44,319 nucleotides of DNA, from NCBI GenBank assembly GCA_944325935.1, contig CALVCF010000017.1, positions 1 to 44,319 on the forward strand. Direction: 5' to 3'. This DNA is from an uncultured Erysipelotrichaceae bacterium (GTDB taxonomy: Bacteria > Bacillota_I > Bacilli_A > Erysipelotrichales > Erysipelotrichaceae). Below, piece after piece: positions 3,776-29,587 of the stretch; position 1 is the stretch's first letter; each line of letters starts with the position of its first letter. Made by a program: the position numbers and the translations under genes. The notes beneath the pieces are model-generated. The model was not told the origin of the DNA. It saw only the letters and a program-made list of their open reading frames with translations, and ran no database searches.

Positions 3776-4503
3776 ATGAGAGTTGTATTATTGATCGTCG
3801 GCATCTTATCTTCGCTTTTAGCAGTATTGTTTCTAAGGGTAAAGGGGCTTTTTTAGCAGCGGGCTTCAATACGATGTCCGAAAAAGAAAAAGCTTTAGTC
3901 GATCAAAAGAAACTGGGGAAGATCATGGCTCTTTTGATGGCTGTTTTAGGACTTGCGTTTTTCTTGGCCTATTTTGATACCGATTACATGGTATTTATGA
4001 TTTTTCCGCTTTTTGCTCTAGTTTTAGCTTTTGTGATCTTTGGGCAAAGATTTATCTTAAATGAAGCGGGAAAGAGCGTCTATGATCGCAAAAAACACTA
4101 TTTGAAGTATTTTCTGGGGATTCCTTTTTATCTTTTAGCCTTATTTTTAATGTTTGATCTTTTGTATCTAGGGAAGATCGAAGTCATTCAAGAAGATAGC
4201 TATTTTAGTTTAAGGAGCGATAAATATAAAGAAGTGTCGATCGACTATCGCGATATCGAAGAAGTTGCTTATCAAAAAGATTTCAGGATTGGAAAGAAAT
4301 TGAACGGGGTCAATAATCTCAAGATAGAGGCAGGGAAATTTGAAAATGAAGATGGCCGCTATCTTTTGTATGCTGAAAATAATGCGGAGGCCTATCTGTT
4401 GATAAGGGTCAAAGGTCTAGGCCTTGTGGTATATGGCGCCAGCGTCAAGGAAGTTGAAAGTTTGCATGATAACATCGACGAGAATTTATTATTTTTTTCT
4501 TAA
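3776..4503 (+). pseudogene. DUF3784-type membrane protein with bPH-like C-terminus, apparent -1 frameshift
   Basis: From 3776 one frame encodes a hydrophobic N-terminus, MRVVLLIVGILSSLLAVLF, and stops at 3856. The neighbouring frame, from about 3832, continues SKGKGAFLAAGFNTMSEKEK, which matches the conserved SKGKG-(A/S)-FL-AG-NTMS motif of DUF3784 proteins. Joining the two at the TTT of 3830-3832 would restore a normal protein of about 242 residues. The restored protein has an N-terminal helix, two central helices, another pair, then a soluble C-terminus of about 110 residues resembling a bacterial PH (bPH_6-like) domain. Read without the shift, an in-frame ATG at 3751 gives a non-hydrophobic N-terminus that does not fit the family. 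A single-base deletion, a sequencing error or phase variation could all explain it. The function of DUF3784 is unknown. Confidence 0.62.
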
Positions 4504-4518
4504 ATTCTTGTAGTCTTG

Positions 4519-4547
4519 TTGAAACTGTTAATATTTAAAATTAAAAT
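4519..4547 (+). promoter_or_regulatory. Sigma-A-type promoter for the AI-2E family gene
   Basis: TTGAAA at 4519-4524 and TAAAAT at 4542-4547 are separated by 17 bases. The -10 box ends six bases before the ATG at 4554, so the predicted transcription start coincides with the start codon. Confidence 0.6.
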
Positions 4548-4553
4548 AAGAAC

Positions 4554-5624
4554 ATGGACATGAATAAAAAGAAAGACTTTATCGTCAATATACTGTTTTA
4601 CGGTATTATTCTAGGCGCTTTTTTTATCGCCTTTCGCTATCTTTTGCCGATCTTAGTTCCCTTCATTATCGCCTTTTTGATCGCTTGGGCCATGCAAAAG
4701 CCCTGCAAGTTCTTATATAAGCGGTTTAAGATCAACAAAAAATTGAGCGGACTTATTTTATTGATCGTTTTTTACCTTGTGATCGGCGGCTTGATCGTTT
4801 TGATCTCTTTGGGACTTATCTCTTTTGTCAGCGAGATCATAAGAGATCTTCCGGCTATTTTTGAAAATGAGATCCGCCCCTTTTTGGACAATCTGGGGAT
4901 GGATATCACCAGCATCGTTCACCAGTTGCCGCCAGAGATCGAAGCCGGCTTGTTGACGATCATGCACAGCCTTGACAGCGCCCTTGATAATCTTATCAGC
5001 GTGATCTCGACCTGGGCCTTAAATTTTGCTACTTCAATGGTCACAGTCGTGCCATCCTTCTTTATCTCGACTGTCTTATGCATTATCTCGTCCTTTTTCT
5101 TTGTCGTTGACTATGACAAGGTCACAAGCTTTGCCTATTCTAAATTAAAGGGGCGCATTAAGACGATCTTTGATGACCTTTGTTTCTTTATGAAAAACAA
5201 GGTCGTCGTTATCATCAAATCTTATGCCATGATCATGTCGATCACCTTTGTGGAATTGACTATTGGCTTTTTCATCATCGGCCTTGACGGTTTTATCTGG
5301 ATCGCTTTAGGTATCGCTATTTTTGATATCCTGCCGGTCTTTGGAACTGGTGGCATCATGATCCCATGGTGTGTGATCACCCTGATCGGGGGCGATATCG
5401 TCACCGGGGTCGAACTGGGCGTAATTTATGTTATTGTGACGATCATCCGCAATATCATCGAGCCTAAGATCGTCGGAGGAAATTTAGGACTGCATCCAGT
5501 TTTGACTTTGGCATCGATGTTAGTGGGAGCGCAGTTTTTTGGAGTCATCGGCTTATTCGGCTGTCCGCTGCTCATCTCCTTTCTTTTATACGCCAATAAG
5601 GCACATGGCGGTCTAAGATTATAA
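4554..5624 (+). CDS. AI-2E family transporter (YtvI/PerM-like membrane protein)
   Basis: This 356-residue membrane protein has the AI-2E/UPF0118 layout. Two N-terminal helices carry the family-typical LLPILVPFIIAFLIAW segment (about residues 28-43). A third helix and a long soluble segment (about 95-170) follow, then a cluster of C-terminal helices containing IFDILPVFGTGG (about 258-270). Family members have been proposed to be AI-2 exporters, sporulation proteins (YtvI) or Na+/H+ antiporters, so the transported molecule is not known here. An ATG six bases downstream (4560) is an alternative start. There is no good ribosome-binding site for either, and the promoter lies directly upstream. It stands alone, with the XRE regulator 81 bases further on. 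Confidence 0.82.
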   Translation: MDMNKKKDFIVNILFYGIILGAFFIAFRYLLPILVPFIIAFLIAWAMQKPCKFLYKRFKINKKLSGLILLIVFYLVIGGLIVLISLGLISFVSEIIRDLPAIFENEIRPFLDNLGMDITSIVHQLPPEIEAGLLTIMHSLDSALDNLISVISTWALNFATSMVTVVPSFFISTVLCIISSFFFVVDYDKVTSFAYSKLKGRIKTIFDDLCFFMKNKVVVIIKSYAMIMSITFVELTIGFFIIGLDGFIWIALGIAIFDILPVFGTGGIMIPWCVITLIGGDIVTGVELGVIYVIVTIIRNIIEPKIVGGNLGLHPVLTLASMLVGAQFFGVIGLFGCPLLISFLLYANKAHGGLRL

Positions 5625-5705
5625 ATTCCACCCAAATTCACCTTTTAAGGGCTGTTTGATCAGCGGGATTTGACTTATGCTTTAAGCGAAAGAAGAGGTA
5701 AGCAT

Positions 5706-6158
5706 ATGAATCAAGAAAAGATTGGCTGCTTTATTGCCAAGAAAAGAAAAGAGCATGGTTTGACCCAAGAAGCCCTTGCTGGCAAATTGGGAGTGTCTTT
5801 TAAAAGCGTTTCTAAATGGGAGCGGGGGAAATGCCTGCCCGACCATTCTTTGATCATGGATCTTTGTAATAATCTAGATATCTCGGTCAGTGAATTGATG
5901 AACGGTGAAGAAAGAGAAAGTGATGAAGCGACGGTTGAACTTTTAGGGCGTATTCAAGCGATCGAAAGACAAAGGAAGATCTTAGAAGGAGCTTTTTTAG
6001 TAATAATCGGCATCATTTTGACGATCGCTTCTAGCTATGTTGAAGGCAGTACATTTAGCGACTTTGTCTCCGGCTTTTTAATGGGGATCGGCGTTGGCGC
6101 ATGTGCGGCAGGAATCATTCTAATGCTTATGCGCATCATACAAGAAAATGATAAATAA
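5706..6158 (+). CDS. XRE-family transcriptional regulator with C-terminal membrane segments
   Basis: This 150-residue protein starts at the ATG at 5706, preceded by AGAAGAGG at suitable spacing. A TTG-initiated frame begins 36 bases earlier but has no such site. Residues 1 to about 66 are a Cro/CI-type helix-turn-helix: KIGCFIAKKRKEHGLTQEAL, then LGVSFKSVSKWERGKCLPD, the usual second and recognition helices. After a charged linker (about 72-95), two hydrophobic helices follow (about 97-112 and 122-144), anchoring it in the membrane. This HTH-plus-membrane layout is common in Bacillota and often senses the cell surface or antimicrobial peptides, but the ligand and targets are unknown. No cognate transporter lies next to it. 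Confidence 0.8.
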   Translation: MNQEKIGCFIAKKRKEHGLTQEALAGKLGVSFKSVSKWERGKCLPDHSLIMDLCNNLDISVSELMNGEERESDEATVELLGRIQAIERQRKILEGAFLVIIGIILTIASSYVEGSTFSDFVSGFLMGIGVGACAAGIILMLMRIIQENDK

Positions 6159-6201
6159 AAGAAGGTATAAGAAAAGTATCCCTTGTGGTAAAATGGGTCA
6201 T

Positions 6202-6233
6202 ATACAATATCTCCTTTGTCAAAGATATTGTAT
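6202..6233. other. 11-bp perfect hairpin in intergenic region
   Basis: ATACAATATCT (6202-6212) is exactly complementary to AGATATTGTAT (6223-6233). The loop itself contains TTTG/CAAA complementarity. It lies between the XRE gene and its predicted terminator. There is no T-tract after it, so it is not itself an intrinsic terminator. It could be an mRNA 3' structure, a protein-binding palindrome or part of a small RNA. Confidence 0.55.
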
Positions 6234-6240
6234 CAAATAC

Positions 6241-6275
6241 GGCTCCGGGTTAGATTCCCTGAGCTGTTTTTGTCG
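6241..6275 (+). terminator. Rho-independent terminator after the XRE gene
   Basis: GGCTCCGGG (6241-6249) pairs with CCCTGAGCT (6257-6265) with one mismatch and one G-T pair, around a seven-base loop. GTTTTTG follows. It is reasonable as the plus-strand terminator of the XRE gene. Confidence 0.6.
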
Positions 6276-6285
6276 TAGACATAAG

Positions 6286-6341
6286 AAAAGGGCTGTGATA
6301 TTAGCCCAATTCAGAATTAGGTTTTCTTACAGCCCCTTTTT
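6286..6341. terminator. Convergent terminator between XRE gene and ispG
   Basis: AAAAGGGCTGT (6286-6296) pairs with ACAGCCCCTTTTT (6329-6341), with one bulged C, around a 32-base loop. A T-rich tail is present on both strands. It lies directly at the ispG stop codon, so its main role is probably on the minus strand. Confidence 0.6.
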
Positions 6342-7374
6342 ATAATTTGGCGATCTCCTCTTTCAAGATCCTGACCGCGTCTTTTTGATCGATCGTTTTA
6401 ATGATCTCACCTTTTTTAAACAACAGCGCTTTATCCTTGCCCCCGGCTATCCCAATATCAGCACGTTTGGCTTCTTGGGGCCCGTTGACGGGACAGCCCA
6501 TGATGGCGACCTTGACATCCTTGTTTAAGGTATTGAGATATTCCTCCATTTCTTTGACAATGGGCAACATATCATATTGGATCCTGCCGCAGGTAGGGCA
6601 GGCGATCAGGGTCGGGGTGTCTTTGAAAAGACCAATGGTTTTTAAAAGCTTTTTAGCGACAATGACTTCTTTGACAGGATCGTCACTGATCGAGATCCTG
6701 ATGGTATCACCGATCCCCTCGTCTAGGAGCTTGCCAAGCGCAAAAGAAGATTTGATGGCGCTGTCTAAAAGTCCGCCGGCTTCAGTTACCCCTAGATGCA
6801 ATGGGTAGGGGAAGATCGTGCTGGCCTTTTCATAGACGGCGATCGTTTCTAAGGCATCACTTGATTTAAATGATAAGCAGATATCGTCAAAATCATATTT
6901 CGCTAAGATCTTCAGATGATCTTTAGCGCTTTCGATCATGGCATCGATCGAATGCGTATATTTTTTATTTAAAGAGCCAGCATTAATGCCGATCCTAAGA
7001 GGCACCTTTTTTGCCTTGGCCAAGTCGATGATTTGATGGATCTTCGTTTCATCTTCGATATTTCCTGGATTCAAGCGGATCTTATCGACACCCGATCTTA
7101 AAGCTTCGAGGGCGAAATCGGGATTGAAGTGGATGTCGGCGACAAGAGGGATCTTTATTCCTTCTTTGATCTTTTTTAGAGCCTTAGCATCTTCCATATC
7201 CAAGACCGCGCATCTGATTATTTCACACCCAGCTTTTTCTAACTCTTTGATCTGTTTGATGCTTGCCTCCACATCCTTAGTCTTGGTGTTGGTCATCGAT
7301 TGGATGACCACGCGGTCTTGACCGCCTATGAAAACATTGCCGACTTTGATCTTTTTAGTATCTGTTCTTTTCAT
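6340..7374 (-). CDS. ispG: 4-hydroxy-3-methylbut-2-en-1-yl diphosphate synthase
   Basis: IspG (GcpE) carries out the penultimate step of the MEP isoprenoid pathway: it reductively opens MEcPP to HMBPP using a 4Fe-4S cluster and an external electron donor. The protein is 344 residues, the usual length of the bacterial two-domain form. The N-terminal TIM barrel shows VIQSMTNT (about 24-31), VADIHFN and KIRLNPGNI. The C-terminal cluster domain carries CPTCGR (about 259-264) and MGCPVNGPQEAKRADIGIAG (about 293 onward), supplying the three cluster cysteines and the conserved Glu. It is a lone gene on the reverse strand, diverging from glgP. AGGATAAG before the ATG could serve as a ribosome-binding site but also overlaps the -10 box, so a near-leaderless transcript is possible. 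Confidence 0.96.
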   Translation of the reverse strand: MKRTDTKKIKVGNVFIGGQDRVVIQSMTNTKTKDVEASIKQIKELEKAGCEIIRCAVLDMEDAKALKKIKEGIKIPLVADIHFNPDFALEALRSGVDKIRLNPGNIEDETKIHQIIDLAKAKKVPLRIGINAGSLNKKYTHSIDAMIESAKDHLKILAKYDFDDICLSFKSSDALETIAVYEKASTIFPYPLHLGVTEAGGLLDSAIKSSFALGKLLDEGIGDTIRISISDDPVKEVIVAKKLLKTIGLFKDTPTLIACPTCGRIQYDMLPIVKEMEEYLNTLNKDVKVAIMGCPVNGPQEAKRADIGIAGGKDKALLFKKGEIIKTIDQKDAVRILKEEIAKL

Positions 7375-20803: not shown

Positions 20804-21421
20804 ATGGAAGTAAAACGATATGTAGCAGGTCTTTTTCAAACCAACAGTTACCTTGTCATCAAGGGTGATAAGTGCCTTTTGATCGACCCAATGCTGCGCC
20901 TTGAAAAACTCGCTGCCCTATTAGAAGGAAAGGAACTTTTGGGAGTCTTATATACCCACGGTCATTTCGACCACATTCAAAAAGGGGACATGATCTATCA
21001 AAAGTATGGGGTTCCGCTATATTTAAATAAGGGCGATTTTGATCTGGTTGATCCAAATAAGTCCTTTAAGACCAACGCCATGAGCGTAGCTCGCCAGATC
21101 TTTACAGGCCATATCGCTTCGCCTTTACACGACCTCTGGGAAGGCCGGCATCAAATCGATCCTTTTGAATTTGAAATCGTTTTGACAAGAGGTCATACGA
21201 TGGGTTCGGTAGCGATCATTATGGAAGATGCGATTTTTTGCGGCGATACGCTTTTTAAGGGCAGTGTGGGAAGATGCGATCTGTATGGTGGGGATGAGCG
21301 CCTATTAAAAGATTCGCTGCGTTTTTATAAAGAGCTTGAGAAAAATTATATCTTATATCCAGGTCACGATGAGATCACTGATCTCGCCTTTGAAAAGGCC
21401 ACTAATCCCTATCTTAAATAA
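20804..21421 (+). CDS. MBL-fold metallo-hydrolase (glyoxalase II-like)
   Basis: This is a 205-residue metallo-beta-lactamase-fold hydrolase. The metal site is clear: THGHFDHI (about 53-60, the HxHxDH motif), a later His in RGHTMGS (about 128-134), Asp in FCGDTLF (about 147-153) and the C-terminal PGHDE (about 186-190). This pattern fits the YcbL/GloB-like branch, which cleaves small thioesters such as S-D-lactoylglutathione. The actual substrate is unknown, and many Bacillota lack glutathione. The start has only a poor ribosome-binding site and lies 11 bases after the rpmG terminator, so expression may depend on read-through. A strong terminator follows. Confidence 0.88.
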   Translation: MEVKRYVAGLFQTNSYLVIKGDKCLLIDPMLRLEKLAALLEGKELLGVLYTHGHFDHIQKGDMIYQKYGVPLYLNKGDFDLVDPNKSFKTNAMSVARQIFTGHIASPLHDLWEGRHQIDPFEFEIVLTRGHTMGSVAIIMEDAIFCGDTLFKGSVGRCDLYGGDERLLKDSLRFYKELEKNYILYPGHDEITDLAFEKATNPYLK

Positions 21422-21447
21422 AAAAGATGAGCTGCTCATCTTTTTTT
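21418..21447 (+). terminator. Intrinsic terminator after the MBL-fold gene
   Basis: AAAAAAGATGAG pairs perfectly with CTCATCTTTTTT around a three-base loop. It works in both directions in principle. Confidence 0.88.
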
Positions 21448-21494
21448 ATTGGGATAGATTGGACTTTGCGGCAATAAATAAGCGGAGGGTGGCT

Positions 21495-22469
21495 ATGGAA
21501 GAAAGATTAAACGCATTACTTAGGCTGGCCTTAAGACATCATGCCAGCGACATCCATTTTACAAGGCGCTATAATGATTTTCTGATCGAAATGCGGATCG
21601 GCGACAAGATCTATCCGGTCAAATCAAAAGTCGGAGATCTGAAGCTATTGCGATATTTAGAATATCTCGCCAATCTAGATATCGGTAATCTTTTAAAGCC
21701 TCAGACCGGTCAATTTGAATGGGTCGTAGAAGATCACAATCTTTCCTTGCGCTTTGCCCTGATCCACGAATTGCATATCGAAAACGGCGTCTTGCGGATC
21801 ATGGATGAACATTTAAAACTTGATGAAGATCATTTATCGATCGACAATGAACAAAATCGCTTTTTTGCGAAAATGCTCAGACAAAAGATGGGGCTCTTTA
21901 TTTGTGCCGGCCCGACTGGCTCTGGCAAGACGACTACGCTGTATACCCTTTTAAAGAAAGCGAAGACAAAGAAGATCTTTACGATCGAAGATCCTGTCGA
22001 GGTCCACTATGATGATCTCATGCAGATCAGCGTGAGCGAGGGGACGGGGATCGGCCTTGACGAAGCGATCAAACAAGTACTGCGCCATGATCCTGACATT
22101 ATCATGATCGGCGAAATTCGTGATGAAAAGACCGCTAAGATGGCGATCCGGGCGGCCAATACCGGTCATCTTGTCCTTACTTCACTGCATGCCGGGACTT
22201 CGCTTTTGGCGATCGAGCGCTTATTAGAGTTAGGGGTCGAAAAGGGCCAGCTTCGCAATGTGCTTTTGGGGATCGCCACGCAAAGGCTTGTCAAACTAAG
22301 AAACAGTACTAAGAAGATGGTAGTTTATGAGACAGTGGAAAGAGAGGTCTTGCTCAGATATCTAAATGGGGAAGATATCAAAGGCAAGTATAGCGATCTA
22401 AAGGATAATCTAGACTATGCTGCTAAAAAAGGACTTATTGAAAACGAAAGAGAAAATCTCCTATTTTAA
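21495..22469 (+). CDS. comGA: Competence pilus secretion ATPase
   Basis: ComGA is the hexameric traffic ATPase that powers assembly of the competence pseudopilus for DNA uptake. I place the start at 21495, preceded by GCGGAGGGTGG; the frame continues 53 codons upstream through the terminator, which is not credible. The 324-residue protein has the type II/IV secretion ATPase core: HHASDIHFT (about 15-23), Walker A CAGPTGSGKTTTLY (about 137-150), the Asp box FTIEDPVE (about 162-169) and Walker B IIMIGEIRD (about 203-211). The His box TGHLVLTSLHAG follows at about 222-233. It is shorter than PilB-type ATPases and lacks their zinc-binding C4 element, as in ComGA. It heads a seven-gene overlapping operon. 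Confidence 0.93.
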   Translation: MEERLNALLRLALRHHASDIHFTRRYNDFLIEMRIGDKIYPVKSKVGDLKLLRYLEYLANLDIGNLLKPQTGQFEWVVEDHNLSLRFALIHELHIENGVLRIMDEHLKLDEDHLSIDNEQNRFFAKMLRQKMGLFICAGPTGSGKTTTLYTLLKKAKTKKIFTIEDPVEVHYDDLMQISVSEGTGIGLDEAIKQVLRHDPDIIMIGEIRDEKTAKMAIRAANTGHLVLTSLHAGTSLLAIERLLELGVEKGQLRNVLLGIATQRLVKLRNSTKKMVVYETVEREVLLRYLNGEDIKGKYSDLKDNLDYAAKKGLIENERENLLF

Positions 22470-23436
22470 ACTGGTCGATCTTTTATCGTTAGACCGTCTA
22501 TTAAATAGCGGAATCGATCTTAAAAATGCCCTCTTTTTATTAAAGACCAAGCAGAATAAAAAACTTATTACAGACCTTTTGACAAAGCTCGATCGCGGTC
22601 TAGCTGTCAATGAGGTTTTCCCCGCTTATCTAAGGCCTGAACTTAGAAGCTATTATTTGGCCTTAGCACCCTACCTTGGCTTAAGAGAGGATCTTCATCT
22701 ATGTCTTCGCCTTTTTGAAGAAAAAAGAGAGCTGGCCAGGGCCGTTCAAAAAGCTTTAGCCTATCCTTTGGGCTTGCTGTTTATAAGTCTAGCGGGGGTC
22801 TATTTGTTCAATGCCTATTGTTTCGAGGCGTTGTTAGGAGCCTTTGCGGCTATGAATACCAATCTTGCTGGGCTTAATGTCTTCCGGGATGTCCTAGACA
22901 TCATGATCAGCATCATCTTTGCCTTTACTGCCTTGATCCTTCTTTTGATCCTCTATTTTACCCGTCCCAAAAGACAGGTCTTCGCCTACGTCTTTCTTCT
23001 TAAGCATTTCTCTTTCAGTGTCTTGAAGGATTATTTCACTAATGAATTCATGATTTATTTCAGAGAATGTCAGCTGCTTGGCATCAAGACTTATGATACG
23101 ATCAACATTTTGAAGCGCCTTAAAGATAAACCCCTGATCGCCCATTTGGCCAAAGAAGTCGACAAGGCCCTCTTAAAGGGCAGTGACCTTAAAGAAGCTT
23201 TGTCATTACCGATCATTGATGAGCGGCTGGTCTATTTTATTAAGATCGCCACCAATATCAAGAATGGTCAAGAGATGATCAAGTTTTATTTAGCTGATTT
23301 TAAACGCCGCTTTCGCAATTTGTGCTTGAAGGTCGCCAAGGGCTTGCAGCTTTTAGCCTACGCCCTGATCGGTCTTCTAATCATCTTTGTCTATCAGATC
23401 TTATTTATCCCCATGAGCATGTTAGGAGGATTATGA
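22417..23436 (+). CDS. comGB: Competence pilus inner-membrane platform protein
   Basis: This 339-residue protein of the type II secretion F (GspF/PilC) family forms the membrane platform that ComGA acts on. The hydrophobic helices lie at about residues 115-130, 170-188 and 310-332, with two cytoplasmic helical-bundle repeats between them, as in the family. The ATG at 22417 overlaps comGA by 53 bases. A TTG start about 20 bases further down is an alternative, since both would leave the conserved YFKLVDLLSLDRLLNSG start of the first domain intact. Sequence identity to known ComGB looks low, but position and topology are decisive. Confidence 0.88.
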   Translation: MLLKKDLLKTKEKISYFKLVDLLSLDRLLNSGIDLKNALFLLKTKQNKKLITDLLTKLDRGLAVNEVFPAYLRPELRSYYLALAPYLGLREDLHLCLRLFEEKRELARAVQKALAYPLGLLFISLAGVYLFNAYCFEALLGAFAAMNTNLAGLNVFRDVLDIMISIIFAFTALILLLILYFTRPKRQVFAYVFLLKHFSFSVLKDYFTNEFMIYFRECQLLGIKTYDTINILKRLKDKPLIAHLAKEVDKALLKGSDLKEALSLPIIDERLVYFIKIATNIKNGQEMIKFYLADFKRRFRNLCLKVAKGLQLLAYALIGLLIIFVYQILFIPMSMLGGL

Positions 23437-23735
23437 AACAAAAACTAGCCGCATTTACTTTATTAGAAATGGTCGTTGTCGTCCTTATCATTTCGATCTT
23501 ATTTCTGTTGACGATACCAAATGTCGCCAAGGTGATGGATTCAGTGGAAGGGGTTGGTTGCGAGGCCCTGACCAAGGTCGTCGATGCCGCGATCGTGGAA
23601 TTCAAGTTAGATTATGGTGAATATCCGGGCAGTGTTGAGGATCTTGTCAGTGCCGGTTATCTTACAAGTGATCAGCTAAAGTGCTCAAATGGCCAAGCTA
23701 TCAGTATTGCCGATGGCCACGCCTATGCAAACTAA
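23433..23735 (+). CDS. comGC: Major competence pseudopilin
   Basis: This 100-residue prepilin forms the shaft of the competence pilus. It starts at 23433 (ATGA overlap with comGB) with AGGAGGA upstream. The N-terminus MKQKLAAFTLLEM carries a class III prepilin signal cleaved before Phe8, with Glu at mature position 5. The usual Gly before the cut is Ala, which is also found in other ComGC-like proteins. A helix of about 20 hydrophobic residues follows (VVVVLIISILFLLTIPNV). Cys43 (GCEAL) and Cys84 (KCSNG) correspond in position to the intramolecular disulfide cysteines of Bacillus ComGC. The LDYGEYP stretch resembles that of known ComGC proteins. Confidence 0.93.
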   Translation: MKQKLAAFTLLEMVVVVLIISILFLLTIPNVAKVMDSVEGVGCEALTKVVDAAIVEFKLDYGEYPGSVEDLVSAGYLTSDQLKCSNGQAISIADGHAYAN

Positions 23736-24033
23736 AGGCTTTACTTTAGCTGAAGTACTCGTCGTCTTATTTATTATCAGTATTATGACAACACTTTCCC
23801 TAAACAAGCTCCCATCGCTCCACTTTGAAGACGATATCTTTATCAGCGAGTATCATTTATCGCTAGCCAAAGCCATGGCTCAAAAGGAAACGACCAGTGT
23901 TGCCCACCCATTAAGTCCCTATCTTTTGCGCTTTAATCAAAACGGCACGATCGATAAGGCTGCTACGATCAATGGTTATCAAAAGGAAATGATAGCTCAT
24001 TTAGGGTCGAGCTATCTTACTTATGAAGACTAG
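23725..24033 (+). CDS. comGD: ComGD-like minor pseudopilin
   Basis: This 102-residue prepilin is read from the ATG at 23725. Earlier in-frame ATGs at 23713 and 23689 would give a longer, unusual leader. The signal MQTKGFTLAEVLVVLFIIS is textbook: Gly at -1, Phe at +1, Glu at +5, then a hydrophobic helix. It overlaps comGC by 11 bases. The remainder is a small globular domain typical of minor pseudopilins that prime pilus assembly. The ComGD assignment rests on position. Confidence 0.82.
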   Translation: MQTKGFTLAEVLVVLFIISIMTTLSLNKLPSLHFEDDIFISEYHLSLAKAMAQKETTSVAHPLSPYLLRFNQNGTIDKAATINGYQKEMIAHLGSSYLTYED

Positions 24034-24232
24034 GGCCTTCTTGTTGGGGGATGGGATCGTCATTGTGGCGCTTGTCGCCATGATGGTCCTTATAACTAAC
24101 GCCGTTTCCAGAATCGTCTTAAATTATGAAAGACAAAAAGAAGAAGTCTTCAAGGATATTGCCTATTATGAAAGCTATTATGAGTTAGTGCCATGCTTGA
24201 TCATAGAAGAAGATTCAGCGGATTCTTACTAA
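24023..24232 (+). CDS. Minor pseudopilin-like protein (ComGE position)
   Basis: This very short protein of 69 residues overlaps comGD by 11 bases and the next gene by 40. Its N-terminus reads MKTRAFLLGDGIVIVALVAM: a short basic leader, Ala-Phe junction and hydrophobic helix. The residue at mature position 5 is Asp rather than Glu if cleaved before Phe6. The soluble part is only about 40 residues. It occupies the ComGE slot and is probably a minor pseudopilin. The sequence alone would not identify it. Confidence 0.65.
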   Translation: MKTRAFLLGDGIVIVALVAMMVLITNAVSRIVLNYERQKEEVFKDIAYYESYYELVPCLIIEEDSADSY

Positions 24233-24591
24233 AGGATATGCTGGTGCTCTTGTTTATCGCGCTTTTGATGTTGCCGCTGGCCTCTAAAAGTCTAGAGATC
24301 TTAGCTTCTTTTAAAAGGCAGGATAGCTCGATCGGCGATCTTCTATCTTTAGAGAAATTGAAAAGGGAGCTGATCATAGCTGATGAGCTGGATCTTGGCT
24401 TACATGAATTGAGCTTTAAAAAGGGAGAAGATACATGGCGCTTGATCTATCAAGACAAGCGTTTATATCTCACTCCTGGTTATCAGCTCTTTTTAGACGA
24501 TGTCGATGATCTCAGGTTTAGTGTGGAGAATGGAAGGATCTATGTTGAATACTACAAGGATGAAAAATACGAGAAGCACCTATTGCGTTAA
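24193..24591 (+). CDS. ComGF-like minor pseudopilin
   Basis: This 132-residue protein starts at the ATG at 24193, inside the previous gene. The next in-frame ATG (24238) would cut into the hydrophobic helix, so the upstream start is preferred. The N-terminus MLDHRRRFSGFLLKDMLVLL has a basic leader, a Gly-Phe junction and a following helix, with Asp at mature position 5. The C-terminal domain (for example DDVDDLRFSVENGRIYVEY near residues 102-120) resembles ComGF, where a similar strand pattern occurs. It is followed by an overlapping ComGG-like gene. Confidence 0.75.
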   Translation: MLDHRRRFSGFLLKDMLVLLFIALLMLPLASKSLEILASFKRQDSSIGDLLSLEKLKRELIIADELDLGLHELSFKKGEDTWRLIYQDKRLYLTPGYQLFLDDVDDLRFSVENGRIYVEYYKDEKYEKHLLR

Positions 24592-24913
24592 TGCCTTTGT
24601 CTCCTCCGCCTTTTTACTGATCTTCTTAGTTGTGATAGCCTTAGCGATCAGTCTGGCGAAGATCATGCGCAATGATCTTGAAAGTCTGCTCTATTTAAAA
24701 AAGATCAAGCTCGATACCATTAAAGAGCGATTAATTATTGATACATTTACCTGCAACCTCTTTAATGGTCATGATAAAGATTTTAGCGTAGCTGATCTTG
24801 AGGTAGAAGTTTATCAAACAGATGAGGGCTATCGTTTACTTTGTGATGATCTTGATCTCTATTTGGACCTCGAGGATAATACAGTCAAAGATTATACCCA
24901 CGGCCCAAATTAA
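24560..24913 (+). CDS. ComGG-like minor pseudopilin
   Basis: This 117-residue protein starts at 24560, overlapping the previous gene by 32 bases, with AAGG just upstream. An N-terminal hydrophobic helix (FVSSAFLLIFLVVIALAISL at about 13-32) is followed by a small acidic domain rich in Asp and Leu. No clear prepilin peptidase site is visible, as in ComGG of other species, where the protein is poorly conserved. The call rests mainly on its place as last gene of the comG cluster and its topology. Confidence 0.68.
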   Translation: MKNTRSTYCVNAFVSSAFLLIFLVVIALAISLAKIMRNDLESLLYLKKIKLDTIKERLIIDTFTCNLFNGHDKDFSVADLEVEVYQTDEGYRLLCDDLDLYLDLEDNTVKDYTHGPN

Positions 24914-24942: not shown

Positions 24943-24975
24943 AAAATAAAGGGCGGCAAAAAGGAGGATTTAAAA

Positions 24976-25533
24976 GTGCTAATCGTCAATGATCTACGTC
25001 CTAATATTTCGTTTGAATATGAAGGCAATATCTATACGGTGCTTGATGTCGATCGCAATAAGACGGCAATGCGTCAGATGATCGTCAAGGTCAAAGTTAA
25101 AAACGTCCGCACTGGTGTCATCAATGAATTATCTTTTACCGGCGGTGATAAAGTCGAAGTTGCCCAAATCGAAAAAAAGAAGATGCAATATCTCTATGAT
25201 AGCGGCGACAGCCTTGTCTTTATGGATAATATGACCTATGATCAGATCGAGATACCCAAAGATAATCTTAAATGGGAGATGAATTTCTTGACCGCAAATC
25301 TTGAAGTAGATATCGCGATGTACGAGAATGAGATCTTAGGGATCACCCTGCCAGATAAGGTTGAGCTGGCGTTAGTCGAATGTGAAGCGGCTGTTAAAGG
25401 CGATACAGCGACCAGCGCATTAAAAAATGCCAAGTGTGAAACAGGTCTTGAGGTCAAAGTTCCTCTATTTATAGATCTCGATGATCACATCATCGTTTCC
25501 ACTCTTGATGGCAAATATTCAAGTCGTGCCTAA
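24976..25533 (+). CDS. efp: Translation elongation factor P
   Basis: EF-P binds between the P and E sites of stalled ribosomes and helps form peptide bonds at polyproline stretches. The 185-residue length and three beta-barrel domains are normal. The GTG start has AAGGAGG nine bases upstream. Family segments include KNVRTGVINELSFTGGDKVE (about 42-61), LYDSGDSLVFMD (about 75-86) and the C-terminal signature region KCETGLEVKVPLFI. The odd feature is the domain I loop. Bacterial EF-P usually has PGKG-type residues there, with a modified Lys or an Arg at the tip, whereas here the loop reads DRNKTAMRQM. Met falls at residue 32 and Arg at 33. The usual lysine-modification enzymes are not in this window. 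It has its own promoter and terminator. Confidence 0.95.
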   Translation: MLIVNDLRPNISFEYEGNIYTVLDVDRNKTAMRQMIVKVKVKNVRTGVINELSFTGGDKVEVAQIEKKKMQYLYDSGDSLVFMDNMTYDQIEIPKDNLKWEMNFLTANLEVDIAMYENEILGITLPDKVELALVECEAAVKGDTATSALKNAKCETGLEVKVPLFIDLDDHIIVSTLDGKYSSRA

Positions 25534-25550
25534 AAAGCACGGCTTTTTTT
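25523..25550 (+). terminator. Intrinsic terminator after efp
   Basis: GTCGTGC (25523-25529) pairs with GCACGGC (25537-25543), including one G-T pair. A run of seven Ts follows. The stem overlaps the last efp codons. Confidence 0.85.
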
Positions 25551-25652: not shown

Positions 25653-25660
25653 AAGGATGT

Positions 25661-25777
25661 AAACTTTCAGGGCAGGGTGCAATTCCCGACCGGCGGTAGA
25701 CCCCGCGAACCTCCCAAAGGAGGCCGAACTTGTGCAATTCAAGTGGCGACAGTAAAGTCTGGATGAGAGAATGTTTC
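25661..25777 (+). ncRNA. FMN riboswitch (RFN element)
   Basis: The conserved RFN core is unmistakable: GGGCAGGGTGCAATTCCCGA, then CCGGCGGTAGACCCCGCGA, a variable hairpin (CCTCC-AAA-GGAGG), CCGAACTTGTGCAATTCAAG and AGTCTGGATGAGAGAA. It binds flavin mononucleotide. A terminator hairpin downstream and the ribU gene indicate control by premature termination when FMN is plentiful. The P1 boundaries are approximate. Confidence 0.96.
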
Positions 25778-25804
25778 TTTTTTATTCTTTCATATGTAGC
25801 CATG

Positions 25805-26549: not shown

Positions 26550-27608
26550 ATGGCGAGATTGACACGCACCCAAAAATATGCCGAATTGCGCAATCAATTA
26601 GAACATAGTCCTGAAGTTGAAGTTACCAGTAAGGATCTTAGTAAATACGAAGATCGGATGAATGATCTGCATATTGAAACGACAACGGTCAAAAACGACG
26701 ACTTGAATGTGATCGAAACGATCGAAGACGCTCCTTCTGTCAAGGAAAAGGAGAATGCTTCTTTTGAAACTGACAAGACCGTACAAGAAACGGAAATGGC
26801 TAGTGTTCCTCAAAATGAAAGCCCTGTTGAAGAAAAGGGCGATGAGGTTTTAGAAGAAGAGAGCTTTGAAGATTTTGAACCCTTTGATCTTGAGGAAAGC
26901 GTTGATAAAGACTCTTTTGAGGAACTAAAGACCGATGATATCGTCGAACTTGATGCCGACGAAGAAAAGATCGACGATAATTATTTAAATGAGGCTTTAA
27001 ATGAAGTCAATGAATACAATAAAGCCCAAGGTCTTTTGACAGCAGATGATGTCTCGGATGCGATCGTCCAAGAGATCCGCTCTTCTAAAAACCAGGATGA
27101 GCACGAAGATGACCTCACTAATACGGTAACCTTAGAGATCAAGAAGATCTTATCGGAATTAGATGCTTCCAATAAAGAAGAAGAAACATCAAGTCAAGCA
27201 CCCAGAGTTGAAGCGCAAAAAGAAGAGAGCGTTAAGGAAGAAGATAAAGAAGCCGAGCTTTCAAGTGAAGTGACCGATCTTTTAAAGACTTATCTGAATG
27301 ATGATGACGACACTGCCACTGGCGGGGATATCGATCAAACGATCGTCGCTACTAATATCGCCAATTTAGAAGACGATCTGCAAACGACTAAACAGGCGCT
27401 GAAAGCCGAGGCTGATAAGACATTGATGAATGAGACTCTGCCTTTAAAGGTTGATCAAGATAAGAAGGTGCAAAAGGACGAAGAACTCGATGTCGAACCG
27501 CGGCCGAATAAGGTCCTCAATTTCATCCTGACCGTTTTGATCTTGGTTCTTATCGGTATTTTGATCTATATCGCCTATCTCATTTTGGCGGCTAGAGGTA
27601 TTATCTAA
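26550..27608 (+). CDS. Acidic protein with C-terminal membrane anchor, unknown function
   Basis: I do not recognise this 352-residue protein. The first 45 residues are basic to neutral (MARLTRTQKYAELRNQLEHS at the very start) and look like a conserved head. Residues about 60-310 are strikingly acidic and low in complexity, rich in Glu, Asp, Lys and Ser, and probably disordered or partly coiled-coil. A single hydrophobic helix at about 328-347 (FILTVLILVLIGILIYIAYL) is followed by only a few residues, so the bulk should face the cytoplasm with a C-terminal anchor. GGAGGA precedes the ATG. The stop shares a base with the cmk start (TAATG), so it leads an operon with cmk, der and gpsA. A role in cell envelope or division is a guess from its shape alone. 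Confidence 0.85.
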   Translation: MARLTRTQKYAELRNQLEHSPEVEVTSKDLSKYEDRMNDLHIETTTVKNDDLNVIETIEDAPSVKEKENASFETDKTVQETEMASVPQNESPVEEKGDEVLEEESFEDFEPFDLEESVDKDSFEELKTDDIVELDADEEKIDDNYLNEALNEVNEYNKAQGLLTADDVSDAIVQEIRSSKNQDEHEDDLTNTVTLEIKKILSELDASNKEEETSSQAPRVEAQKEESVKEEDKEAELSSEVTDLLKTYLNDDDDTATGGDIDQTIVATNIANLEDDLQTTKQALKAEADKTLMNETLPLKVDQDKKVQKDEELDVEPRPNKVLNFILTVLILVLIGILIYIAYLILAARGII

Positions 27609-28264
27609 TGAAGATCAACATAGCGATCGATGGCCCTAGCGCTGCCGGCAAAAGCACTGTATCCGATCAATTAGCCCAGTTATTGGGCTATGTTCATCTT
27701 GATACCGGCGCAATGTATCGCTTAGTAGCTTACCTGGCCTTAGAGAATCAGCTTTCCTTAGATGATGAAAAAGCGATCGTGGAACTTTTAAAAAAAGCTG
27801 ACGTCAAGTTTGAGGATAATGGCGATATTTATTTAAATGGAAATTTAGTAAACGAAGTCATCAGGACCAACGAGATCTCGATGGCTGCCAGCACTGTCTC
27901 CAAAAATCCTTTGGTGCGTGAGGCCTTAGTTGCCCTTCAAAAAAAGATCGCTGCCAATAAGGGCTATATCTTAGATGGGCGCGATATTGGAACGGTCGTC
28001 TTAAAAGATGCAGAAGTAAAGATCTTTTTGACCGCCAGCGCCCAAGATCGGGCTAGGCGCAGAATGCTGCAAAACAAGGCCAAGGGCATCAAAGATGATT
28101 ATGAAAAGTTGTTAAACGAGATCATTGCCCGTGACAAGCAGGACATGGACCGAGCCATCTCACCCTTAAAAAAGGCTGATGATGCGATCTTGGTCGACAG
28201 TTCAAATCTTAGCCAAGAAGAAGTAGTAAATAAGATCTATCAAATTGTAAAAGAAAAATTATAG
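27608..28264 (+). CDS. cmk: Cytidylate kinase
   Basis: Cmk phosphorylates CMP and dCMP to the diphosphates for nucleotide recycling. The protein is 218 residues, a normal length for the Gram-positive form. The P-loop IDGPSAAGKSTVSDQLA is at about 6-22, the family substrate segment HLDTGAMYRLVAY at about 31-43, and LDGRDIGTVV at about 118-127. The DRARRRMLQ lid region follows at about 147-155. It overlaps the upstream acidic protein gene by one base. The cmk-der order, commonly with a glycerol-3-phosphate dehydrogenase gene nearby, is widespread in Bacillota. Confidence 0.96.
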   Translation: MKINIAIDGPSAAGKSTVSDQLAQLLGYVHLDTGAMYRLVAYLALENQLSLDDEKAIVELLKKADVKFEDNGDIYLNGNLVNEVIRTNEISMAASTVSKNPLVREALVALQKKIAANKGYILDGRDIGTVVLKDAEVKIFLTASAQDRARRRMLQNKAKGIKDDYEKLLNEIIARDKQDMDRAISPLKKADDAILVDSSNLSQEEVVNKIYQIVKEKL

Positions 28265-28276
28265 GAGGAGAAAACT

Positions 28277-29587
28277 TTGATCGATGGAACCATTGCGATC
28301 GTCGGACGCCCCAATGTAGGCAAATCGACCCTGTTTAATCGTATGTTAGAAGAGCGCTTGGCCATCGTCGAAGATGAACCGGGCGTTACCAGAGACCGCC
28401 TTTATGGCGAGTGCTCTTGGTTAGCTAAGACTTTCCGCATCATTGATACCGGCGGGCTGACGTTTGATGATGCACCCTTTCAAAAAGAAATCAAGGCCCA
28501 GGTCGACCTGGCGATCGAGGAAGCAGATGTCATCATCTTTTTGGTAAATGGCAGACAGGGTCTGACTAGTGAAGACGAGTATGTTGCCAAACTTTTAAGG
28601 CAGTCTAAAAAGCCGATCGTCGTCGCTGTCAACAAGATTGATGATGGATCGCAGATCGCCAATATTTATGATTTTTATAAACTGGGACAAGGGGATCCGA
28701 TCGCTGTTTCAGCTAGTCATGGGATCGGAGTAGGTGATCTCTTAGACCGTTGCGTAGAACTAATTGGCGAAAAAAAGATGGATGATTATGAAGGAATGAT
28801 CAAATTTGCGATCATCGGCCGTCCTAATGTCGGTAAATCATCTTTAACTAATGCCTTGGTGGGCGAAAATCGTGTGATCGTCTCCGATATCGAAGGGACA
28901 ACTAGAGATGCGATCGATACTCTTTTTGTTGCCAATGATAAGACTTATGTCGTTATTGACACGGCTGGAATCAGAAAAAGGGGAAAGATCTCGGAAAATA
29001 TCGAAAAATATGCCCTCTTAAGAGCGAAGGCGGCGATCGATCGCGCCGATGTCGTCTTGGTCGTACTTGATGCGACTAGGGGTTTGATCGAGCAAGACAA
29101 ACACGTCGCCGGTTTAGCTCATGAGGCTTTAAAAGGAGTGATCCTTGTTGTGAACAAATGGGATGCCCTTATAAAAGATGATAAGACAATGGCTAATTTT
29201 GAAAAGAAACTGAGGATCGATCTGCCCTATCTTGACTATGCGCCGATCTGTTTTACCTCGGCTTTAAGGGGCCAAAGAATGAAGCCGCTTTTAAAGACGA
29301 TCGATCTTGTCTTCAACAACGTCAACCTGCGCATTAAAACTAACGTCTTAAATGAGGTCATCATGGATGCGCAGTATTCAAATCCGCCCAAGACCCATAA
29401 TGGTAAACGTTTAAAGATCTATTATGCTTCACAAGTGGAGACGGCGCCCTGCGTGATCGTCTTATTTGTGAACGATGTGGAACTTATGCATTTTTCATAT
29501 GAGCGCTATCTAGAAAATCAATTAAGGCAGGCCTTTGGTTTTGAAGGGGTGCCGATCAAGATCATTGCGAGGAAAAAAGAATCATGA
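28277..29587 (+). CDS. der: Ribosome-assembly GTPase Der (EngA)
   Basis: Der is a double-GTPase needed for maturation of the 50S ribosomal subunit. It is 436 residues with two G domains. The first has GRPNVGKSTLFN (about 10-21), DTGG (about 57-60) and NKID (about 118-121). The second has GRPNVGKSSLTNAL (about 180-193), DTAGIRKRGK (about 227-236) and NKWD (about 293-296). A KH-like C-terminal domain follows. The start is a TTG at 28277, supported by AGGAGGAG eight bases upstream and by the residues MIDGTIAIVGRP right at the start of the first domain. There is no in-frame ATG nearby. Its stop overlaps the gpsA start (ATGA). Confidence 0.97.
   Translation: MIDGTIAIVGRPNVGKSTLFNRMLEERLAIVEDEPGVTRDRLYGECSWLAKTFRIIDTGGLTFDDAPFQKEIKAQVDLAIEEADVIIFLVNGRQGLTSEDEYVAKLLRQSKKPIVVAVNKIDDGSQIANIYDFYKLGQGDPIAVSASHGIGVGDLLDRCVELIGEKKMDDYEGMIKFAIIGRPNVGKSSLTNALVGENRVIVSDIEGTTRDAIDTLFVANDKTYVVIDTAGIRKRGKISENIEKYALLRAKAAIDRADVVLVVLDATRGLIEQDKHVAGLAHEALKGVILVVNKWDALIKDDKTMANFEKKLRIDLPYLDYAPICFTSALRGQRMKPLLKTIDLVFNNVNLRIKTNVLNEVIMDAQYSNPPKTHNGKRLKIYYASQVETAPCVIVLFVNDVELMHFSYERYLENQLRQAFGFEGVPIKIIARKKES

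Follow-up and report, generated by a model that had tools for sequence, protein, structure and literature searches.

EF-P assists the ribosome in translating stretches of consecutive prolines, and it is usually described as dependent, at a single position, on a Lys or Arg that carries a modification. A Met residue at the EF-P tip is already in print (PMC2821294, PMC6544042, and PMC11611912): Arg, Met, Asn, and Gln have been listed as tip residues (PMC2821294; the list is repeated in PMC11611912), and among 1166 sequences Met occupied the tip in 0.77%, never together with Pro at position -2, with Asn, Gln, and Ala as further tips (PMC6544042). The Met-tip entries of PMC2821294 and PMC6544042 are counts, and the passages concerned mention no Arg33, clade, coexisting Lys-type EF-P, or cassette in connection with them. 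With the arginine-type proteins, such as that of Thermus thermophilus (Arg32), the EF-P described here shares the EF-P fold, a seven-residue loop, the absence of Pro at -2, and an Arg near the tip, and its clade sisters have NKTAR loops; it differs in that its Arg lies one position later, with Met at the apex. EfpL (YeiP) of Escherichia coli is an EF-P relative found beside a Lys-type EF-P, and the TAR of its loop, SPTARGAAT, recalls NKTAR (PMC11611912), but that loop is extended by two residues, while the one described here is of canonical length. Genomes with two EF-Ps have likewise been reported, 29 in PMC6544042 and, with EfpL included, 660 with two EF-P-type sequences in PMC11611912. The Geobacter, Pelobacter, and Alcanivorax pairs combine one Lys and one non-Lys EF-P per genome, as is the case here, but with Ala or His in the non-Lys protein and a modification of the YjeA/YjeK (EpmA/EpmB) type (PMC2821294). 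Finally, the second EF-P of the genome under study shares with the 5-aminopentanol pathway of Bacillus subtilis (YmfI, YnbB, and GsaB) the loop KPGKGAA, an adjacent SDR gene, and a YnbB-family gene; it differs from that system in an SDR that falls below the YmfI cut-off and in the lack of a GsaB/HemL-type match in its own genome.

The window, i.e., the whole stretch of 44,319 nucleotides that was analyzed, encodes an EF-P (Table 1) which scores 212.8 bits against the family model TIGR00038 (cut-off, 185.8) and exceeds the cut-offs of all three Pfam EF-P domains (PF08207, PF01132, and PF09285), and which stays below those of the EfpL/YeiP models (NF003392, 122.9 of 216 bits; TIGR02178, 103.5 of 264.05 bits). 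An AlphaFold model based on a 41-sequence alignment (mean pLDDT, 82.8), which replaced a single-sequence model with a pLDDT of 35.6, retrieved EF-P or EfpL chains at Foldseek ranks 1 to 21, followed by IF5A, the best match having a TM of 0.91 and 46% identity; one of these chains, 1yby, is titled "hypothetical" there and is named EF-P elsewhere. The original prediction had described the remainder of the protein as normal, which is borne out by these models, domains, and fold, and had argued against decay. Comparison of the window efp with ten relatives gave a pN of 0.08 to 0.15 versus a pS of 0.70 to 0.88 (pN/pS of about 0.11 to 0.17, with pS near saturation), which rules out decay or a frameshift.

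Table 1. Features of the window around efp, with the cassette of the second EF-P (last row, at L059 from contig C19 of the same genome)
Feature	Position	Strand	Details	Basis
efp, lysine-free NKTA-lineage EF-P	24976..25533	+	185 aa, GTG start, TAA stop	Profile models, Pfam domains, fold
Domain I beta3-omega-beta4 loop	25057..25077	+	Residues 28-34, NKTAMRQ	Reading, alignment, predicted structure
Met32 codon	25069-25071	+	ATG	Direct reading
Arg33 codon	25072-25074	+	CGT	Direct reading
Ribosome binding site	24960..24967	+	AAAGGAGG, 8 bases 5' of the efp GTG	Direct reading
Terminator-like hairpin and T run	25521..25545	+	Overlaps efp stop codon; 9 pairs, loop of 7	Consensus match (1 found versus 0.5 expected)
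Pilus/competence-like genes	21336..24913	+	Directly 5' of efp	Recur upstream of NKTA efp in relatives
T2SSE ATPase	21336-22469	+		
T2SSF	22417-23436	+		Weak match, below cut-off
Stretch without family	23322-23735			No match in Pfam search
N-methylation motif gene	23689-24033	+		
Stretch without family	24193-24591			No match in Pfam search
Gene without assigned family	26550-27608	+	Recurring downstream context of efp	
Cytidylate kinase	27608-28264	+	Recurring downstream context of efp	
EngA/Der GTPase	28277-29587	+	Recurring downstream context of efp	
KPGKGAA EF-P, SDR, and YnbB-family gene	3827-6474		L059 (G000:C19)	

Direct reading and gap-free alignment agree with the loop originally given, NKTAMRQM, with Met at residue 32 and Arg at residue 33. 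Over its seven residues, the loop aligns without gaps to KPGKGAA of the paralogue that this genome also encodes, Met32 standing in the Lys32 column of this paralogue. The strands predicted at residues 18 to 29 and 35 to 43 flank the loop, so that T30-A31-M32-R33-Q34 would form a turn with M32 in its middle. The PGKG sequence is absent, with T30 at -2 instead of Pro and M32 at the tip instead of Lys, and the protein is thus not of the Lys type; with Met at 32 and its Arg at 33 it is not of the arginine type either, to which the sister NKTAR proteins do belong.

The genes that surround efp in the window recur in relatives. Among 80 named Erysipelotrichaceae loci, which were counted by locus and many of which end early at contig ends, a T2SSE-like gene was located upstream of the NKTA efp in 42 and a cytidylate kinase gene downstream in 46; the loop in these loci reads NKTAMRQM in 79 and NKTAMAKM in 1, under a search pattern that partly selected for NKTAMRQ. 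The pilus/competence-like genes 5' of efp presumably correspond to those that carry comG names. Among the named carriers of a TAMRQ-type EF-P are Holdemania filiformis and H. massiliensis, both with NKTAMRQM, as well as Anaerorhabdus furcosa and Bulleidia extructa. The gene context (pilus/competence-like genes, cytidylate kinase, and Der) recurs in named Erysipelotrichaceae, and we read this protein as the EF-P native to its lineage and passed on vertically. The gene without an assigned family downstream of efp specifies an acidic-looking product of 352 aa with a hydrophobic C-terminal stretch, which was matched in 44 of the 80 related loci and had no Pfam match at an E value of 1e-4. An FMN riboswitch (RF00050, 106.8 bits) is present at 25659-25778, 5' of an ECF transporter substrate component read from 25844, which is probably a riboflavin transporter.

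Loops of this kind are widespread among relatives. Among 72 NK-type loops, many of them from related sequences, so that the counts are not independent, 37 carry Met32 (27 NKTAMRQM, 5 NKTAMRKM, 4 NKTAMAKM, and 1 NKTAMRGM) and 35 carry Arg32 (19 NKTARAAA, 9 NKTARSAM, 4 NKQGRLSG, and 3 others). A basic residue at position 33 or 34 is present in every one of the Met32 loops (Arg33 in 33, Ala33-Lys34 in 4) versus none of the 35 Arg32 loops. The simplest reading of these sequences would be that an NK-type loop needs one basic residue, the position of which is negotiable. Arg33 itself is variable, as the 4 of 37 Met32 loops with Ala33-Lys34 illustrate, and two Arg32 loops with Ser33 (G016 and G017) fall among the Met32 loops on the tree. 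At the nucleotide level, the NKTAMR codon pattern was detected in 94 of 392 sampled genomes, own genome included, and a hand count by family (designated here by f numbers) yielded 26 of 41 for f1, 42 of 48 for f8, 19 of 19 for f23, 3 of 8 for f19, 1 of 1 for f29, and 0 of 16 for f2. Single matches in f11 and f30 (G290 and G415) have no EF-P at the site and one in f15 (G167) lies away from EF-P; most other matches were taken as counted rather than read one by one. Recurrence across NK-type loops, named loci, and sampled genomes rules out chance or a sequencing slip as the source of Met32.

On a tree built by a quick method from which the loop columns had been left out, a branch with an SH-aLRT of 99 sets apart a group that holds the 41 Met32 rows and 50 of the 59 Arg32 rows but no PGKG row, while the remaining nine Arg32 rows (f9 and f11) fall elsewhere. 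Three long-branch rows (G006 L084, G030 L086, and G060 L176) had been dropped beforehand, and the trees carry one row for G001, which has both kinds of EF-P. The lysine-free clade thus delimited comprises f1, f2, f5, f8, f16, f19, f23, and f29, and spans Erysipelotrichaceae, uncultured families, and Mycoplasma-like families. The original prediction had asked whether TAMRQ is a clade feature; it is, the NKTAMRQ EF-P being ordinary within a lysine-free clade of many genomes rather than a singular case. Well-supported branches require that the Met32 state changed no fewer than two times, the deep order inside the clade not being resolved. An in-frame TGA was found in most f5 and f16 EF-Ps and in two of the three f23 sequences read; Mycoplasma likewise uses TGA within genes, as a Trp codon. 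The notion that such Mycoplasma EF-Ps carry NKTAMRQ proved wrong for f5 and f16 (e.g., SKTGRQQG and SKQGRGQA); the f23 loop reads NKTAMREG.

The window protein is not the sole EF-P of its genome; the canonical second EF-P that the original prediction had named as a counter-indication does exist, whichever of the two does the main job. A family search of this genome (1.36 Mb in 81 contigs, 95.7% complete and 1.71% contaminated) located it on contig C19; its loop reads HVKPGKGAA. An SDR gene lies 3' of the PGKG EF-P gene, on the same strand and within about 30 bases, and a YnbB-family gene (PF06838, 518 bits in own genome) converges on it from the opposite strand. Across 60 genomes, i.e., own genome and 59 relatives, SDR matches of at least 64% identity (268 bits or more) occur in 28, the best match among the others having 44% identity, and full-length YnbB (490 bits or more) also occurs in 28, the best match elsewhere reaching 32 bits; PGKG EF-P, SDR, and YnbB occupy the identical set of 28 genomes. 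In 26 of these, YnbB shares the contig of the EF-P gene, from which it is no more than 5 kb away and oppositely oriented, and in G023 and G044 it is encoded on another contig. In a class sample of 159 genomes (155 with an EF-P match, of which 136 were read), full YnbB was present in 24, every one of which has a PGKG EF-P, and in none of the 48 read genomes without a PGKG EF-P. Since 64 of the 88 read class genomes with a PGKG EF-P have no full YnbB, a PGKG EF-P can do without YnbB outside the order.

On the tree, the PGKG EF-Ps of the order (31 rows) group in a single clade (SH-aLRT, 99), apart from most of the remaining families of the class. It is adjoined (support, 90) by a sequence from family f17, the second EF-P of genome G102, in which EF-P, SDR, and YnbB are likewise found together (L298). 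Although the two EF-P genes of own genome are located on different contigs, contamination as a general source of the second EF-P is ruled out, as both EF-Ps share a contig in six genomes: G001 (C95, about 3 kb apart), G008 (C29), and, on contig C1 in each case, G037, G041, G050, and G139.

A wider reading of the order establishes which of the two proteins is the constant one. Among 66 genomes (the 58 with an EF-P match among the 60, all read, plus 8 same-family genomes from the class sample), 30 have both kinds, 34 have the NK-type without PGKG, and 2 have PGKG only (G003, 81% complete, and G044, 100%). As the NK-type was kept in 64 of the 66, it represents the constant EF-P, and the canonical protein is optional. 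A Met32 EF-P with no PGKG EF-P was found in 22 genomes (14 f1, 4 f8, and 4 f19), which are drafts of 87 to 100% completeness, so that a second EF-P may be missed in single cases. The same-genus genome G007 (95% complete) has a Met32 EF-P only and is also without the SDR and full YnbB. There was no EF-P match in G035 (83% complete). Genome G024 (2.3 Mb, 98% complete) matched none of seven queries, including families matched almost everywhere, and perhaps has an unusual sequence; its missing EF-P was left out of the evidence.

On balance, and with moderate confidence, we favor the reading that the window encodes an unmodified, working EF-P which uses Arg33, and that the Lys32 EF-P cassette is dispensable. 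Of the options named in the original prediction, acting unmodified and relying on Arg33 are those best supported by our comparisons. The protein would most likely occupy the E site as other EF-Ps do and support the end of the P-site tRNA without a tip modification, through a tip loop that is without Pro30 and Lys32, as it is across the whole lysine-free clade. Arg33 (Lys34 in the NKTAMAK variants) would do the job of Arg32 in the sister proteins, while Met32 would fill the apex. In own genome, the NKTA EF-P is proposed to work beside a Lys32-type EF-P that is probably modified and whose gene travels with those of an SDR and a YnbB-family enzyme.

The presence of both kinds in 30 of the 66 order genomes could also reflect a division of labor, in which polyproline work falls to the Lys32 EF-P and its cassette, with the NKTA EF-P active in other contexts or in a helper role comparable to that of EfpL beside E. 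coli EF-P. Five of the six longest NK-type branches indeed belong to two-EF-P genomes (loops NKQARGAM, NKQGRLSG, and NKTAMAKM), and NK-type distances within f1 are slightly larger where a PGKG EF-P is present (median of 0.55 versus 0.48; Mann-Whitney p of 0.017, with G001 misfiled), but f2 shows no such difference (p of 0.83), and the comparison of rates between two-EF-P and other genomes is weak and inconsistent. Such a specialization appears rather unlikely to us, given that the NK-type is the constant partner, with 34 genomes lacking PGKG against only 2 with PGKG alone, and that NKTAMRQM itself is found both with and without a PGKG partner.

Enzymes that could modify either protein were sought as the original prediction had suggested. 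EpmA matches remained below the family cut-off in all 27 genomes searched, including own genome and 20 of the 22 Met32-only genomes (controls, 2 of 14 above it); the best of them lie in open frames of about 440 to 660 aa, which is presumably the size of lysyl-tRNA synthetase. Deoxyhypusine synthase was detected in 0 of 23 genomes (own genome and all 22 Met32-only genomes) versus 7 of 14 controls, and the EarP search matched 0 of 27 genomes but also 0 of the 14 control genomes. The SDR of the cassette reached 162.3 bits against a YmfI cut-off of 238, and it was also below the cut-offs of the other SDR models listed (the best being PRK12826, 208.3 of 222). GsaB/HemL (TIGR00713) had no match in own genome G000 and was over the cut-off in 5 of the 60 genomes, 1 of which has a PGKG EF-P. 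The Lys32 EF-P of the cassette is probably modified; as the SDR stays below the YmfI cut-off and GsaB/HemL gave no match, this modification may differ from 5-aminopentanol.

A modification of Arg33, Lys29, or Met32 of the window protein itself by an enzyme not yet described seems improbable. It would accord with a report that over half of bacteria have no gene for any of the known modification enzymes (PMC6544042) and with the invariance of N28-K29-T30-A31-M32 in 41 aligned rows, a figure that is biased, as these rows derive from a search with NKTAMRQ as one of two patterns. What recurs next to the window efp, however, is a set of pilus/competence-like genes together with cytidylate kinase, Der, and a component of an ECF transporter, none of which is enzyme-like for this purpose. 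Moreover, the clade holds Mycoplasma-like reduced genomes, and the Mollicutes studied in PMC4014445 are all described there as being without E. coli-type EF-P modification enzymes.

That an unmodified Arg can serve, as our preferred reading of an unmodified EF-P using Arg33 supposes, is indicated by T. thermophilus EF-P, in which Arg32 contacts C75 and 23S phosphates (PMC2821294), and by E. coli EfpL, in which R33 was found by MS to be unmodified (PMC11611912). In E. coli EF-P, K34R retains only 20% activity and K34M, with a Met tip, is inactive (PMC6544042); both are single changes in a PGKG loop, which leaves undecided the case of NKTAMRQ, where Pro, Gly, and the next residue are changed as well. 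The inactivity of that Met tip, together with the action of ABCF or YebC-type factors on stalls in B. subtilis without EF-P (PMC11381351 and PMC11990639), would fit a further scenario, in which the NKTA EF-P has left polyproline rescue for another task and such factors resolve PPP stalls. We regard this scenario as very improbable in view of the full set of EF-P domains and fold, the strong constraint on the gene, and the retention of a basic residue in all 72 loop tips.

The proline triplet of valyl-tRNA synthetase was also counted in favor of a working EF-P. This PPP belongs to a conserved motif; its sequence PPPNVTG was detected in all 22 Met32-only genomes and in 70 of the 76 genomes searched, the six in which it was missed (G016, G018, G021, G024, G055, and G132) including none of the 22. 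This PPP would probably be kept in any case, and other factors could serve it.

More tentatively, as a plausible account that we would not yet call probable, a clade of several families may run on an EF-P without tip lysine and modification, in part of which the basic residue has slid one position, with loop length unchanged and Met at the apex. Some members would have added a Lys32 EF-P as a three-gene self-modifying cassette (EF-P, SDR, and YnbB), the modification of which, without GsaB, may be new. Among the papers listed in searches of the open literature, none dealt with the NKTAMRQ clade, the shifted Arg, or the Erysipelotrichales EF-P/SDR/YnbB cassette. The occurrence of a Met-tip EF-P without a PGKG partner in 22 genomes opens to direct test the question whether a basic residue is required at position 32 or a neighboring Arg suffices. 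The species with two EF-Ps and the cassette-free same-genus G007 represent natural experiments in what modification buys, and the identical distribution of the Lys32 EF-P, SDR, and YnbB suggests which enzymes make up the core of one EF-P modification of the Firmicutes type.

Further loop types were encountered outside these two kinds. Third, divergent EF-P-like proteins are encoded in the two-EF-P genomes G006 (L084, SKSGRNAA) and G030 (L086, IKAGNGAG), the latter protein being below the family cut-off. In G129 (family f21; L191 and L192), both of two EF-Ps read MHVLQNK-VAYV, a loop that lacks one residue, aligns a Lys with Lys32, and contains no PGKG. At L189 and L186 (f15) and L171 (f17), the EF-P loop reads KSANSMA, with Asn at the tip and no Pro at -2, in contrast to PMC6544042, where Asn-tip EF-Ps are reported to have Pro in 100%.
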